The notes below the pieces were generated by a model. That model was not told where the DNA came from, made no database searches, and worked only from the letters and a program-made list of their open reading frames with translations. This document shows positions 4,366-10,841 of a stretch of DNA of 11,776 nt, piece after piece. Source of the DNA: Strigomonas culicis (taxonomy: Eukaryota; Euglenozoa; Kinetoplastea; Trypanosomatida; Trypanosomatidae); the NCBI GenBank assembly GCA_000482145.1, contig AUXH01000590.1, positions 1-11,776 of the forward strand. The letters are read 5' to 3'. Position numbers and translations under genes: made by a program. Numbering within the stretch: position 1 is the first letter of the stretch; every line of letters begins with the position of its first letter.

Positions 4366-6396
4366 ATGAACCGAAATGAAGATCGATTGCTCACTCAACG
4401 CCGCTTAGGTTTTAGATTCTTCATCCTGGTACTGTGTATGCTTAGCTGCATGGCCTATGAGCGCTACTGCACGATGCCAGCCCGCGTGCGTGCGCACCCG
4501 GAGTGGCGCACCTGCATTCTGTGTCCGGACGGCAGCATCCGCGCGGCGCTGACGCAGGACTCCCAGTTCTGCGCACCGCGCGACGCGAACCGCATCACCA
4601 CCGCCGCGCACGCCGCCTCGCTGGCCGCCGCGGAGGTCCCGCTGTGGCGCACCGCACATCCACCCCTCAGCAACCGCGAGCGGCAGTGGGTCGTCACCGC
4701 GGCGGAGTGCGCGGTGGTCGTCGCGGCCTTTCACCCGCACTTCCGGGAGGTGGTCAGCGCGGCGAACTTAGCACTCGTGCCACTCTTCACCGCGGCGCAC
4801 CCGGAGGCGGCCGCCGACACATGGAAGCCGCTGGTGCGACTGACAAAGGAGGTGAAGGCCTCGCTGGTGCAGGGCGCGGCGAGCTTCCGCTACCGGTCGG
4901 AGATGCAGCGCGTACCGGTGTGGTACGGCTCGCCCCTGCGGGCCTGCCTCCCACCCCCGACACTGCCCGCGGGCGGCGACGCCAGCCGCGACTGTCCCCG
5001 GCAGTACGTCACGTTCAATAACTGGCTGAGCGGGCGGCACCACAACCAGCTGCAGATGCTCATCAACGTGCTCTCCCTCGGCCGTCGCCTGAACCGCACG
5101 GTCATCCTGCCCCCCTTCTGCATGGACGCGCCGGACTGTGCCATGGGCGTCCGCGCGGAGTGGTTTTACAACCTCAGCGGCATCGCGCGCGCGGGGTACT
5201 GCTTTATCGCCTATGACGAGCTCGAGCGGCGGCTGCTAGAGCGCTATGATGCCGCGCAGGGCGTGTTCCCCGATGCGACGATGCCCACGGTGCAGTACGT
5301 GTACTCGGACAAGGAGGTGAACGTAGCGCAGCCGCCCTTTCTCGAGGCGGAGGTGGACGTGGCGCAGCTGGTGCGGCCGGGCATCGGCCGCCTGCGCCGC
5401 CGCAGCGGCCACCGCGGCCTGTTCCTGCGCCACGTGCGGCCGTACATGCCGCACACGGCGCTGAACCGGATGGCGGCCCTCGTGGGCGAGTGCAGGCTCG
5501 CCGGGGCCGCGGCGGCGGCTCCGGCGAATGAGACAGAGCGCTACTGCGCCAACGCGCCGACAGCGCGCGGCAGCACGGCGGGGCTCCCCATGGGCGTGAC
5601 CGTGCTGGCCCTCTCGCAGGTTCTCGCCTTCACCCAGCGCGCCTCCAAGACGGAGACGAGTCTGCTGCTGCACCTCCTGCTCCCGTCGCCGTCCGTGCAG
5701 CGTGCCATCGCGAGCTACTGCGCGGCGAACGGGCTGGCGTGCGGGGCGGCGGCGCACGGCGCGGCGGCGGCCCCGCACCACATGGTCTCCGTCCACGCGC
5801 GCCAGCGGGAAAACAGCTGCCTGTACGAGATCGACGAGCGCCTCCGCTGTAAAGGCACCCAGTCGCCCTTCTTTATTGACAACCGCATGTGTGCGGACTA
5901 CATGCGGGACTGCACGGTGAGCGTGAAAAAGCTGCTGGCGACCTACAACGACCTCGCACAGCCCCTGCGGCCGAACAGCACGGCGCCGTGGCCGGCGCTG
6001 CTGCTCATGCACGACCCGGATTCCGTGAAGGTGGTCACGGAGGTGGCCAGCATCCTGCGGTCGCGCGGCGTGCGGGTGCTGATTATGACCGGCAACGTGG
6101 AGCCCTTCCACGACAACGTGTCAGCCGTCGAGGAACAGCGCCAGAAGCAGCCGTTTCCCTTTGGAAGCAGAAAGCTGTACGACTCTGTGGAGAAGGAGCG
6201 TCAGGACAGCATTCACCTCGTTAGCAATGTACACGAGCTGGTGACGGAGTACTTTATCATTACCTCCCTGCCCAGCGCCTTCGAGGGTAACTTTTTGTCT
6301 TCTATTTCACAAAATATTTGTATGCGACGTTTTTACAGGGGCCTGCCCTGTAACAATCTGTTTCCCGGGTTTTTTGAATACACCTTCCCCAGTTAG
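4366..6396 (+). CDS. Putative Golgi/ER GDP-fucose protein O-fucosyltransferase-like glycosyltransferase
   Basis: A 676-residue protein with type II topology: a short basic N-terminus (RR at 12-13), one membrane anchor (about 16-31), then a large luminal part with several N-glycosylation sequons (NRT, NLS, NET, NST, NVS). Motifs match the O-fucosyltransferase superfamily in order. A G-R-x-x-N-Q loop (G223, R224, N227, Q228) sits in a block reading YVTFNNWLSGR followed by LNRTVILPPF, as expected for the N-terminal Rossmann half. An H-x-R-type element follows (H477, R479, with E482). A strand pair then resembles the nucleotide-sugar half (ALLLMHDPDS and VRVLIMTG). Finally comes a Y-F-I-I-T-S-x-x-S-A-F element (629-639), similar to the family's terminal Ser/Phe motif. 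Transfer of fucose from GDP-fucose to a glycoprotein is therefore inferred; acceptor and linkage cannot be told. The last ~38 codons are AT-rich, unlike the rest. Alternative: another GT-B glycosyltransferase of related fold. Confidence 0.6.
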   Translation: MNRNEDRLLTQRRLGFRFFILVLCMLSCMAYERYCTMPARVRAHPEWRTCILCPDGSIRAALTQDSQFCAPRDANRITTAAHAASLAAAEVPLWRTAHPPLSNRERQWVVTAAECAVVVAAFHPHFREVVSAANLALVPLFTAAHPEAAADTWKPLVRLTKEVKASLVQGAASFRYRSEMQRVPVWYGSPLRACLPPPTLPAGGDASRDCPRQYVTFNNWLSGRHHNQLQMLINVLSLGRRLNRTVILPPFCMDAPDCAMGVRAEWFYNLSGIARAGYCFIAYDELERRLLERYDAAQGVFPDATMPTVQYVYSDKEVNVAQPPFLEAEVDVAQLVRPGIGRLRRRSGHRGLFLRHVRPYMPHTALNRMAALVGECRLAGAAAAAPANETERYCANAPTARGSTAGLPMGVTVLALSQVLAFTQRASKTETSLLLHLLLPSPSVQRAIASYCAANGLACGAAAHGAAAAPHHMVSVHARQRENSCLYEIDERLRCKGTQSPFFIDNRMCADYMRDCTVSVKKLLATYNDLAQPLRPNSTAPWPALLLMHDPDSVKVVTEVASILRSRGVRVLIMTGNVEPFHDNVSAVEEQRQKQPFPFGSRKLYDSVEKERQDSIHLVSNVHELVTEYFIITSLPSAFEGNFLSSISQNICMRRFYRGLPCNNLFPGFFEYTFPS

Positions 6397-6776: not shown

Positions 6777-6825
6777 ATGGCGTGCGGTGCGCGACAGTGT
6801 GTGCCGCCGCACAGGCCCCTTCTTA

Positions 6826-6859
<34 letters not shown>

Positions 6860-8255
6860 AGCACTGTTGACGAGCGCGGCCGCGCTGCGGGATGGCCACG
6901 GGTGGCACGCGTGCGAGCCGCGCAGCCTGCAGGCGAGCGGCTACGTATCCTTCGCGACCACGCCGGACCCGACGGCGGCGCCCACACGGCACCTCTTCTA
7001 CTGGCTCCTGAGCCCGCGCGAGCCGCCGGCCGCCGGGGGGCCGGCGCCGGTGCTGCTGTGGCTCTCCGGGGGGCCCGGCGCGAGCGCGCTGGTGGCGCTG
7101 CTGACGTCACACGGTCCGTGCCGCGTGAACGAGAGCAGCGGCGCGCTCGACGCGCACCCCGACGCGTGGAACCGCAAGGCCTACGTGCTCTTCGTGGACC
7201 AGCCGGTGGGCGTCGGCTTCAGCTACAGCGACGAGCCGTCCGAGGCGGGCGGCGCGACGAGCGGGGCGGCGGTGGCCGCGGACGTGTACCACTTCCTGCA
7301 GGGCTTTGCGCGCAAGTTCAGACACCCCGCCTTCACGGCCGCGAGCGCCGGTGGGGCGGCGGCCGGCGGCGTGCATGAGCTGTTCGTGGCCGGCGATGGC
7401 TATGCCGGCCACTACATCCCCACCATCGCGGCGTACATACGCAGCGAAAACGAGAAGCGCGCCGGGACGAGCGCGTACGTGCACCTCCGCGGCATCGCGA
7501 TCGGCAACGGGTGGGTGGACCCGTACACCCAGATGCCGAGCTACGCGACGCTCGCCTACGACTGGTGCAAGGTCCGGCTGGGCGTGCCGTGCATCACGGC
7601 CGCGCAGCACGCGGCGATGCGGGCTGAGCTGCGCGCGTGCCAGGCCGCCATCGCGGGCTGCAACGACGCGCAGCAGCCCTTCGAGAACGACATGTGCCTG
7701 CAGGCGGGCGCTCGCTGCGAGCGGTATCTGTCGTACTACCTGAATACGTCCCGCAGTCCGCACAACATCCGCGGCGCCTGGGACGGCAGCGCGCGCGGCG
7801 CGCCGCCGGAGGCGGTCACCGCCTTCCTGGCGCGGCCGGCGGTGCGCGCGGCGCTCGGCGTGGCGGCGGGCGCGCCGCCGTGGGCGGCCAGTAGCGCGGC
7901 GGTGCGCCGCCGCTTTGCGTACGACGCCTACAAGACGGTGAACGCGACGGTGGCGCGGCTGCTGGAGGGGGGCCTGCGTGTGTGGGTGTACGCGGGTGAC
8001 TTGGACTACATGGGGAACTGGGTCGGCGCCAAGGCGTGGCTGCGGGCGCTGCAGTGGCCGGGCGCCGCCGGCTTCGCAGCGGCGCCGGACACGGAGTTCG
8101 TCGTTGATGGCCGGTGGGCGGGGCGGGAGCGGACTTACGGCAACCTCACCTTTGTGCAGGTGTACGAGGCGGGACACGCGGTGCCCACTGACGCGCCCGC
8201 CGTTGCGCTACAGATCATCGAGCACTTCATGGACGGCGCGTCTCTCAGCCCGTAG
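6777..8255 (+). CDS. Serine carboxypeptidase-family (S10) protein lacking the catalytic serine
   Basis: A 492-residue protein of normal S10 length with a signal peptide (about 1-36) whose core is eleven leucines. Family signatures run in order: the oxyanion block W-L-S-G-G-P-G (96-102 region), then W-N and F-V-D-Q-P-V-G-V-G-F-S-Y-S, then A-G-D-G-Y-A-G-H-Y-I-P (205-215), then Y-A-G-D-L-D-Y-M-G-N-W (catalytic-type Asp410), then E-A-G-H-A-V-P (catalytic-type His467). The canonical G-E-S-Y reads G-D-G-Y, so the nucleophile Ser is Gly208 and the preceding Glu is Asp207. The family Asn before GGPG is Ser97, and the Glu that helps bind the substrate C-terminus is Ser111. Four sequons fit secretion or lysosomal delivery. 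An active family member would remove C-terminal residues from peptides in acidic compartments; this one probably cannot by the usual mechanism. The frame is intact, so decay is unlikely. From memory, Leishmania CBP1 also lies beside a PAP2 gene; I could not check this. Confidence 0.9.
6828..6857 (+). repeat. (CTG)10 trinucleotide repeat encoding the signal-peptide core
   Basis: Ten perfect CTG codons followed by CTA encode residues 18-28 of the carboxypeptidase-like protein, all leucine. The repeat is in frame, so slippage would change the hydrophobic core length without breaking the gene. It may also be collapsed or expanded by assembly. Confidence 0.95.
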
Positions 8256-8558: not shown

Positions 8559-9548
8559 ATGTTCCCGTGGTCGTGGGAGGAAGTTTGTCGCGCGAACGCG
8601 AACTATCGCCTCAGTGACTACCTCCTCTGTTTTGCGATGTATCTCTTCTGCATCATTCTGTCCGCGACGGTCACGCCGCACTGTCGCACCTTCGACCCGT
8701 CGGACGCGTCCATCAGCCACCCCTACGCCGGCGCCGGCACCTTCCCCTCCTGGACACTGCCCATCATCAGCATCGCGCCCGCTGTGATCTACGCAGCGGT
8801 GGAGTACATGTCGTACCGCCAGCATGCAGATGCCGTCGCGCCCGCCGCCGCCGTCACCGCGACGGACGTGGCGATGACAGCAGTCGATGACCGCCGCGAG
8901 CGGCAGCGGCTGGCGGGCGGCGGCGGCGTGGCCGTGGTCGTGAGCGGCACGGACGGCAGCGCCGCGGCGACGGCGGAGCGGGGCGACGGCGGCGGCCCCG
9001 TCGCGGTGCCGGCCGAGAAGCGCGTGTGGCACTTTGTGCTGCGCGCGCACTACTGGTTCCTCACGCAGGCTTTTTCCGTCGCGCTGGCCATGCTGATCGT
9101 GGACACGACGAAGCTCTACGCGGGGCGGCTGCGTCCTGACTTTCTCGACCGCCTCCGCCGCGCGGATCTGGACACGAGCTACAACGCGTCGGACAGCGCC
9201 TACTGGTGCGACAAGGCGCTGTCGGGGCGCAAGTCGTTCCCGTCCGGCCACAGCGCCATCAGCTTTGCCGCCTTCGTGCCGCTCTGCTGCTTTTGCATGA
9301 GTCGCCTACAGGCGTGGCGCCACGGCGGCTCCTACACGCGGCTGACGGTGGGGCTGCTCCCGCTGGCGCTGCCCATCATGGTGGCCGTTTCCCGCACACG
9401 CGACTACCGCCACTTTTTTGACGATGTGGTCGCCGGCTCTGTCATCGGCACGGTGACCGCGCTGATCGCCGTGCTGTACAATTTCGAGATGGATGCGACG
9501 AGCGGCCGACTGTTCCCGCATCGGCAGCGGTCGCCTATGCAACTATGA
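8559..9548 (+). CDS. PAP2-family lipid phosphatase (phosphatidic acid phosphatase-like), copy A
   Basis: A 329-residue multi-pass membrane protein with the complete three-part PAP2/LPP signature: K-x6-R-P (K185 to P193, KLYAGRLRP), P-S-G-H (228-231), and S-R-x5-H-x3-D (S278, R279, H285, D289). The histidines at 231 and 285 are the expected acid/base and phospho-His. About six membrane segments are visible (near 21-38, 65-84, 163-183, 233-252, 262-278, 290-310). Known family members dephosphorylate phosphatidate or other lipid phosphates on the luminal or outer face of membranes; the substrate here cannot be assigned. The start was set at 8559 because the best splice AG lies at 8539-8542. A hydrophilic Ala/Gly/Val-rich insert (about residues 88-153) sits in the loop between the second and third segments and is absent from copy B. 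It is followed at a spacing of 279 nt by copy B. Confidence 0.9.
   Translation: MFPWSWEEVCRANANYRLSDYLLCFAMYLFCIILSATVTPHCRTFDPSDASISHPYAGAGTFPSWTLPIISIAPAVIYAAVEYMSYRQHADAVAPAAAVTATDVAMTAVDDRRERQRLAGGGGVAVVVSGTDGSAAATAERGDGGGPVAVPAEKRVWHFVLRAHYWFLTQAFSVALAMLIVDTTKLYAGRLRPDFLDRLRRADLDTSYNASDSAYWCDKALSGRKSFPSGHSAISFAAFVPLCCFCMSRLQAWRHGGSYTRLTVGLLPLALPIMVAVSRTRDYRHFFDDVVAGSVIGTVTALIAVLYNFEMDATSGRLFPHRQRSPMQL
8820..9017 (+). other. Low-complexity loop insert unique to PAP2 copy A
   Basis: Residues about 88-153 of copy A form an Ala/Val/Gly/Asp-rich hydrophilic segment with one charged cluster (DRRERQR) and a Gly run. Copy B goes from its second segment to its third with about 64 fewer residues, while the distances before and after agree. 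The segment is thus an insertion in A or a deletion in B, placed in a loop away from the catalytic motifs. Confidence 0.75.
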
Positions 9549-9697
9549 GAGTGTGTCATGTCGTCCTTTTTTTTTTGTGTGTGGCTGTTGTTGGTGCGTA
9601 CTTCTGGTGGTTCTCAGTCTTCCATTTGCTCTTTTTGTTCTTCGAAACACCTGTACCTGTGTGTGCCGCTGTCCGCGCGTGTTCTTCACGACATGTG

Positions 9698-9729
9698 GAT
9701 TCCCTCTTCCATCCCCTTTTTCTCTCTAG
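9698..9729 (+). promoter_or_regulatory. Strong candidate trans-splice acceptor for the second PAP2 gene
   Basis: An almost uninterrupted pyrimidine tract (about 9702-9727) ends in CTCTCTAG, with AG at 9728-9729. There is no other AG and no ATG between it and the ATG at 9828. The predicted 5' UTR is 98 nt. This argues against the in-frame ATG at 9558, which lies upstream of the acceptor. Confidence 0.55.
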
Positions 9730-9827
9730 TTGCGTCTTACACGTGGACCTCTTCGCGTTTGTCACGACTGTCGTCCGTGCGATTGTTTTTGGCTTCTATT
9801 TACGTGCTATCCTTTTCGTGCATTGCA

Positions 9828-10841
9828 ATGGCCTCGTGTGGCGAAAGCTTCCGGAAGCACTTTATGCTGTGGCGCATACCGGACTACCTGACCATCGGCG
9901 TCCTAGCCGCTATCGCCGGCCCCATCGGCGCAAAGGTGCATCCGCACTGCCGCTCCTTCAGCTGGGATGACCCCACCATCAGCCACCCGGCCGAAAGGGA
10001 CATCTTCCCCACGTACTCCGCCATCATCGCAGTTGTCTTGGTGGCGCTGCTGTACCTTGTGGGCGAGTTGGTCTCGCGCTGGCACCGGCCGGCCGGGAGG
10101 CGCAGCATGCTGCTGCACCTGAACGGCTGGATCTTGACCCACCTCTACAGTGTCGTTCTCGCCTTCGCGATTGTGAACATCTTGAAGCTGTACGCGGGCC
10201 GCCTCCGCCCGCGCTTCCTCGCGGCCCTGGCGGCGGAGGGCATCACACAGGCGACCGCGGGCAGCTTCACGGCGGCGCAGATCTGTCACGCGGCGCGCGA
10301 GGCGCGTGTGTCTTTCCCCTCTGGCCACAGCGGCACCGCCTTCAGTGGCTACGTGCCCCCGGTGCTCTATCTCTTCGGCCTCTGCCGCTCACTCAACGGC
10401 GGCCACTTCTGGGTCAAGACGCTGTGCCTGCTGCCGCTCGTGCTGCCCATCACCATCGCCGTGTCCCGCACGGTCGACTACCACCACAACTTCGACGACG
10501 TCCTCTGCGGGTCGCTCATCGGCGCGAGCTGCGGCGTCGTCGCCGTCGTCGCCGCCTTCCGCCCCTCCGCGCGCGGCGAGTGGACGCTGCGCGACGCGCC
10601 GGACGACACGCCGGCCGCCGCGGCGGCGTGCGGCGCGGCGGGCGACGAGGCGCACCTGATGGCGCAGCCGCGGACCGCGTCGGACAACCCGATCGAGCCC
10701 CCGAGCGACGCCGCCGGCCGCGAGGCGCGCGACAGCACCCACGACCGCGCGGACGCGCGGCCCGCCAAGGGGAGCGTGTCACCGGTGCTGCCCTTCATCG
10801 ACAGGCAGGGCGATGTGGTCGTGCGCGACGGCAGGCCGTGA
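9828..10841 (+). CDS. PAP2-family lipid phosphatase (phosphatidic acid phosphatase-like), copy B
   Basis: A 337-residue multi-pass membrane protein with all PAP2/LPP catalytic motifs: K-x6-R-P (K120 to P128, KLYAGRLRP), P-S-G-H (164-167), and S-R-x5-H-x3-D (S213, R214, H220, D224). It aligns along its length with copy A: DYL near residue 20, a PHCR-S/T-F segment with D-x-x-I-S-H-P, and SRT-x-DY near the end. The core is shared but well diverged, which fits an old tandem duplication. Beyond the last membrane segment (ends about 244) it carries a ~93-residue hydrophilic Ala/Asp/Arg/Pro-rich tail that copy A lacks; copy A ends soon after its last segment. The frame is open back to ATG 9558, but that stretch is T-rich, unlike coding sequence here, and lies before the likely splice site, so I start at 9828. 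Likely acts on lipid phosphates at internal membranes or the surface; substrate unknown. Confidence 0.9.
   Translation: MASCGESFRKHFMLWRIPDYLTIGVLAAIAGPIGAKVHPHCRSFSWDDPTISHPAERDIFPTYSAIIAVVLVALLYLVGELVSRWHRPAGRRSMLLHLNGWILTHLYSVVLAFAIVNILKLYAGRLRPRFLAALAAEGITQATAGSFTAAQICHAAREARVSFPSGHSGTAFSGYVPPVLYLFGLCRSLNGGHFWVKTLCLLPLVLPITIAVSRTVDYHHNFDDVLCGSLIGASCGVVAVVAAFRPSARGEWTLRDAPDDTPAAAAACGAAGDEAHLMAQPRTASDNPIEPPSDAAGREARDSTHDRADARPAKGSVSPVLPFIDRQGDVVVRDGRP

Follow-up and report, generated by a model that had tools for sequence, protein, structure and literature searches.

A serine carboxypeptidase homologue of Strigomonas culicis with glycine in place of the catalytic serine

In African trypanosomes, carboxypeptidases of the S10 (serine carboxypeptidase) family activate veterinary benzoxaborole prodrugs, and wild-type T. 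brucei CBP1B restores a drug sensitivity that its S179A form does not restore (PMC7710103, excerpt). An S190A mouse of protective protein/cathepsin A also exists (PMC3937211, excerpt). Inactive members of serine-protease families are already on record from plants; the S10 section of that source, as excerpted, names acyltransferases and contains no Ser-to-Gly S10 protein (PMC1560137, excerpt). Here we describe an S10 homologue from the trypanosomatid Strigomonas culicis in which Gly stands at the position of the catalytic Ser. Its gene lies in a window that is one whole contig (AUXH01000590.1, 11,776 bases) of a draft assembly of 17.7 Mb in 670 contigs. Judged by its sequence, this S10 homologue cannot work by the mechanism usual for S10 peptidases. 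In the titles and abstract openings of the literature on inactive or trypanosomatid S10 proteins, we found no report of a Gly-nucleophile S10 homologue in a kinetoplastid.

A nucleophile elbow without serine

The gene occupies an uninterrupted frame of 492 codons on the forward strand (6777..8255) and encodes a protein of 492 amino acids. Residues 51-486 score 293.5 bits against the Pfam family PF00450 (curated cut-off 21.9), which identifies the product as an S10 homologue. Its predicted structure has the fold of carboxypeptidase Y (CPY), an alpha/beta-hydrolase with a cap. At the nucleophile elbow (residues 206-213; 7392..7415, +) the codons GGC GAT GGC TAT GCC GGC CAC TAC specify G-D-G-Y-A-G-H-Y where the family has GESYxGHY. 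An earlier reading of this DNA, made from the sequence only, had described an open frame with GAT GGC in place of the codons for Glu-Ser, and the DNA bears out both statements.

We compared the window protein with 233 homologues, the union of two protein searches (one contributed its top 120 of 230 hits, the other its top 120 of 2373), each of which scored only the ~8000 candidates with the most shared words. Columns were counted in a MAFFT alignment of the window protein with this set. The nucleophile column holds Ser in 232/233 retrieved homologues and Gly208 in the window protein (codon GGC, 7398..7400, +); the column before it holds Glu in all 233 and Asp207 in the window protein (codon GAT, 7395..7397, +). 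Within the set, Gly at the nucleophile is thus a rarity, and no other member has Asp in front of it.

The sequence-only reading had also called the rest of the domain intact. This is right for the fold and for the catalytic pair, Asp410 (8004..8006, +) and His467 (8175-8177, +), and the GGPG loop is retained too. It is not right for the active site, where 11 of 18 conserved columns have changed. We mapped 26 site positions from CPY by alignment, of which 18 fall in columns conserved at 90%; these 18 and the 59 other conserved columns were defined over all 233 homologues. With gaps scored as change, the window protein differs at 11/18 site columns and at 8/59 other columns (Fisher p 0.00015); raising the conservation level to 95% gives 9/16 and 6/47 (p 0.0011). 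No site column is changed in CBP1 of Angomonas deanei or in C165, the other S10 gene of this genome (0/18 each).

The altered positions, each given with its usual residue, are C102, E111, E207, S208, Y329, C335, C341, Y342, C372, C413 and M468. Beyond the elbow, Ala102 (7080..7082, +) stands where 229/233 homologues have Cys (CPY C56), Ser111 (7107..7109, +) where 231/233 have Glu (CPY E65), His329 (7761..7763, +) where 230/233 have Tyr (CPY Y256), Ser372 (7890..7892, +) where 230/233 have Cys (CPY C298), and Gly413 (8013..8015, +) where 219/233 have Cys (CPY C341). Within residues 335-342 (7779..7802, +), Trp335 and Gly341 replace the Cys pair C262-C268 of CPY, and Ala342 replaces a Tyr (CPY Y269). 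The retained His467 is followed by Ala468 for the usual Met (218/233; CPY M398; 8175..8180, +). We take CPY C56 to pair with C298, and CPY E65 to be the carboxylate clamp. The losses cover both partners of two active-site disulfides (CPY C56-C298 and C262-C268), the equivalent of the clamp Glu65, and the S1' wall including the equivalent of Met398.

Counts over all conserved columns, in which gaps were not scored as change, also place the window protein at the top. Among columns conserved in at least 95% of homologues, the window protein is changed at 15/63, the maximum among the 233 homologues being 11; C165 is changed at one of these columns and Angomonas CBP1 at two. At a level of at least 97% the window protein differs at 10/52 columns and the next homologue at 6, and at a level of at least 90% the window protein differs at 19/77, as does one homologue, P0101. 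Such a protein is almost certainly inactive as a carboxypeptidase: with the nucleophile gone, the acyl-enzyme chemistry of the S10 family would be gone as well.

At the N terminus, a Leu-rich hydrophobic helix (residues 13-33; 6813..6875, +), evident in the sequence and as a helix in the model, holds a CTG-type repeat. It is likely a signal peptide, and the protein is probably located in the secretory pathway. Directly before the nucleophile strand lies a Gly/Ala-rich ten-residue insertion (residues 190-199; 7344-7373) that is missing from nine aligned relatives; model confidence is mostly low there (residues 188-196 under 50).

Ancestry and the canonical paralogue

Protein, family and DNA searches found two S10 genes in the genome, the window gene and C165 (1363-2916). 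The latter provides the second, canonical S10 gene for which the sequence-only reading had suggested a search: its GESYGGHY motif is intact, its active site is canonical by sequence, and it is 42% identical to the window protein. A second CBP1-type copy was not found by the same three kinds of search in this assembly, which seems incomplete.

We built a maximum-likelihood tree of 45 proteins, comprising 43 of the 233 homologues and the two genes of this genome. The window gene groups with Angomonas deanei CBP1 (P0001; support 98/94), and both fall in a clade of CBP1-type proteins with 21 rows that we call clade A (support 100/100). C165 groups instead with a second Angomonas S10 protein, P0151 (support 100/99). 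A quick tree of 73 proteins (71 homologues plus the two genes) agrees, with supports of 97 and 100. The exact place of the window gene is less sure, given long branches and an odd letter make-up. The nearest listed homologue is ~46% identical to the window protein, and saturation of synonymous sites would be expected in a comparison with C165; means of identity were taken from 11 Leishmaniinae clade-A proteins and the clade-A site tally from 18.

The window gene and C165 have separate Angomonas partners, and the two copies therefore predate the split from Angomonas. By its sequence, it was the CBP1-type copy whose chemistry was lost. Angomonas retains Ser in its members of both paralogue groups, whereas the present genome has one dead and one canonical copy; because of this, the roles of the two S10 copies are directly comparable.

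Maintenance, decay and possible function

We consider it likely that the window protein is a CBP1-type S10 carboxypeptidase of this trypanosomatid lineage turned maintained pseudoenzyme. In its sequence, Gly has replaced the Ser nucleophile and Asp the preceding Glu, and much of the remaining active site has been dismantled with the scaffold kept. The sequence-only reading had already proposed a maintained pseudoenzyme, and the active-site losses, the canonical paralogue, and the kept scaffold cysteines, sequons, frame and codon bias support that proposal. Scaffold Cys are kept at 8/8 positions by comparison with 13 clade-A proteins, and three N-glycosylation sequons are kept by comparison with 12. 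The GC content at third codon positions (GC3) is 0.919 in the S10 gene, 0.857, 0.869 and 0.843 in three other open reading frames (ORFs) of the window and 0.920 in a fourth; it lies far lower, at 0.31-0.48, in four intergenic stretches. The phase of highest GC is constant over ten consecutive 150-base segments of the gene. The open frame alone is weak evidence, because only 2.8% of point changes in this GC-rich gene create a stop; the probability of finding no stop falls below 5% only after ~109 neutral changes. Site losses set against scaffold retention are a stronger argument: once the serine was lost, neutral decay would not be expected to spare the conserved columns outside the site. Frame, GC3 and scaffold conservation together argue against simple decay, and it is very likely that the gene is maintained.

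Several observations weigh against this reading. The assembly seems incomplete and may therefore lack a canonical CBP1 copy that the genome holds: it yields 12 proteasome-family matches, where 14 core proteasome subunits are expected, and 11 Cpn60/TCP1 family matches. The homologue P0101 equals the window protein in changed columns at the 90% level (19/77), although its changes are not concentrated in the site (6/18 site columns vs 13/59 others, p 0.36). Neither active-site disulfide is present in P0031, and the C262-C268 pair is absent from two clade-A proteins, P0145 and P0147; all three keep Ser, so disulfide loss alone is no proof of inactivity. From these sequences, the active-site disulfides are usual, not strict, in active S10 peptidases. 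The site counts also depend on the list of catalytic and substrate-site residues assumed for CPY. Backing for part of it comes from a PDB title for Thr60 and Met398 and from PMC6609556 (excerpt) for C262-C268, a bond whose loss has a reported effect in CPY (same excerpt).

The rate of change also counts against maintenance. The window branch is long (2.0, vs 1.06 for P0001), and the window gene is the faster by Tajima tests with three outgroups (p 0.030, 0.007 and 0.0003); C165 and P0151 show no rate difference (p 0.11, 0.43 and 0.90, three outgroups). This acceleration is also compatible with relaxed constraint. Moreover, the sequence-only reading had looked to orthologues sharing Gly/Asp, and the Asp-Gly pair occurs in none of the 233 listed homologues, so that persistence over speciation is not demonstrated.

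A loss in progress would account for several of these points: the gene would be a pseudogene, either relaxed or young, in which no stop has arisen so far and which C165 makes dispensable. The long, fast branch, the presence of the canonical paralogue and the low yield of stops from point changes are all in keeping with it. We nevertheless regard it as improbable, since the losses cluster in the active site (11/18 vs 8/59), the scaffold Cys and the three sequons are kept, GC3 has not drifted, and an open frame would be hard to retain past ~109 neutral changes.

As a maintained pseudoenzyme, the window protein would still enter the secretory pathway and fold, and carboxypeptidase work would pass to C165. 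Glycine fits a strained nucleophile elbow when no side chain is required, and the Ser-to-Gly step may itself have been fold-stabilising. The likeliest mode of action, at about an even chance, is a non-catalytic binding role in the secretory or lysosomal system, in which the protein would hold a partner or ligand through the cap and through a pocket that is probably larger and less acidic than before. Decoy holding of ordinary peptide C-termini is unexpected, because clamp and S1' wall are altered too. A more specific proposal is that a former lysosomal-type carboxypeptidase is now a secreted or lysosomal binding protein (an S10 receptor) whose pocket is new and enlarged, or else activates its living paralogue (a prozyme). 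We hold this to be doubtful, and in the titles and abstract openings on inactive or trypanosomatid S10 proteins we found no kinetoplastid description of an S10 receptor or prozyme. With the scaffold kept and the chemistry stripped, the protein offers a natural test of the scaffold's own role.

A prozyme would be one particular form of such binding: the dead paralogue would bind the active C165 and activate or stabilise it. Trypanosomatid dead paralogues do so for S-adenosylmethionine (AdoMet) decarboxylase and for deoxyhypusine synthase, and a dead and a canonical S10 copy do occur together in this genome. S10 proteins of wheat and human form homodimers (PMC6609556, excerpt), and these dimeric proteins lack a bond of the CPY C193-C207 type (same excerpt). 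Both copies of the present genome, in contrast, have Cys264 and Cys272, the likely counterpart of that bond, which favours a monomer and makes a prozyme less likely. The two copies are, moreover, only 42% identical and fall in different tree groups, and in Angomonas, where each group is represented, neither has lost Ser. On this evidence the chance of a prozyme is slim.

Altered catalysis, in which the His467-Asp410 pair would drive another reaction with Asp207, is highly improbable. The pair and the GGPG loop are indeed kept, but His and Asp may be retained for the fold alone, and the residues of substrate recognition are lost as well, which makes the altered chemistry on the S10 plan entertained by the sequence-only reading unlikely. 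S10 acyltransferases and hydroxynitrile lyase are known to keep Ser, which also counts against it. That S10 relatives with other activities exist, namely plant acyltransferases (PMC1560137, excerpt) and hydroxynitrile lyase (1gxs), speaks in its favour. That the nucleophile codon owes its reading to an error of sequencing or assembly is negligibly probable, even for a gene that is single-copy in a draft assembly and on a contig that could hold indel errors (a phase shift occurs near 1800 in an upstream gene): such an error is at odds with two adjacent altered codons, the point that the sequence-only reading had raised against a simple base-call error, and with nine more altered active-site positions and an unbroken frame.

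Neighbouring genes and comparison with known systems

Two PAP2 phosphatase genes follow the S10 gene in tandem on the same strand. The first (8559..9548, +; PF01569, 96 and 98.9 bits) has its start inferred at the first ATG of an ORF that runs from 8517; the second (9558..10841, +; PF01569, 81.3 and 84.8 bits) has an uncertain start. Both carry KxxxxxxRP, PSGH and SRxxxxxHxxxD, motifs as in PMC9232130 (excerpt). In Leishmania, the numbers LmjF.18.0430 and LmjF.18.0440 belong to PAP2 genes, and CBP1 bears the number LinJ.18.0450 (PMC9232130 and PMC7403338, excerpts). Judged by these gene numbers, the window gene and its two PAP2 genes may share the neighbourhood of Leishmania CBP1.

Upstream on the forward strand, the high-GC phase of a gene at 456-2469 switches near 1800, from an ORF at 456-1997 to one at 1891-2469; this pattern seems to reflect a frameshift, whether genuine or introduced by the assembly. 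Between it and the S10 gene lies a 676-aa gene (4366-6396, +) with an N-terminal hydrophobic stretch and a sub-threshold hint of an O-fucosyltransferase (E 0.06). One homologue, P0234, appears among the matches listed (49% over full length). The gene is possibly an unrecognised glycosyltransferase.

Among the homologues retrieved, the sole other protein with Gly at the nucleophile (1/233) is P0013 of Phytophthora fragariaefolia. It reads GEGYAGHY and thus keeps Glu; it is changed at 2/18 site columns, lies outside the clade of the window gene and is 35% identical to the window protein. Its Ser-to-Gly change is apparently independent, or a sequence error.

Human protective protein/cathepsin A has a stabilising role, to which the proposed binding mode may be likened. 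Its catalytic Ser is S190 (4cia; mouse complex 7kdv; PMC3937211, excerpt), whereas the window protein lacks this Ser. Yeast carboxypeptidase Y (1cpy, 1ysc) has Ser, Glu and Cys pairs where the window protein is altered. C165 has the S10 domain in common with the window protein but an intact GESYGGHY, and it groups with P0151, not with CBP1. Within clade A, the Leptomonas-type CBP1 paralogues P0145 and P0147 have Met at the conserved Tyr329 as well and represent another diverging CBP1 branch. The closest described relatives, CBP1 of Angomonas deanei (P0001) and of Leishmaniinae, resemble the window protein in length, scaffold Cys and the three sequons. Unlike it, the CBP1 relatives keep Ser and Glu, and 0-3 of the 18 site columns are changed in 18 clade-A proteins, compared with 11 in the window protein.
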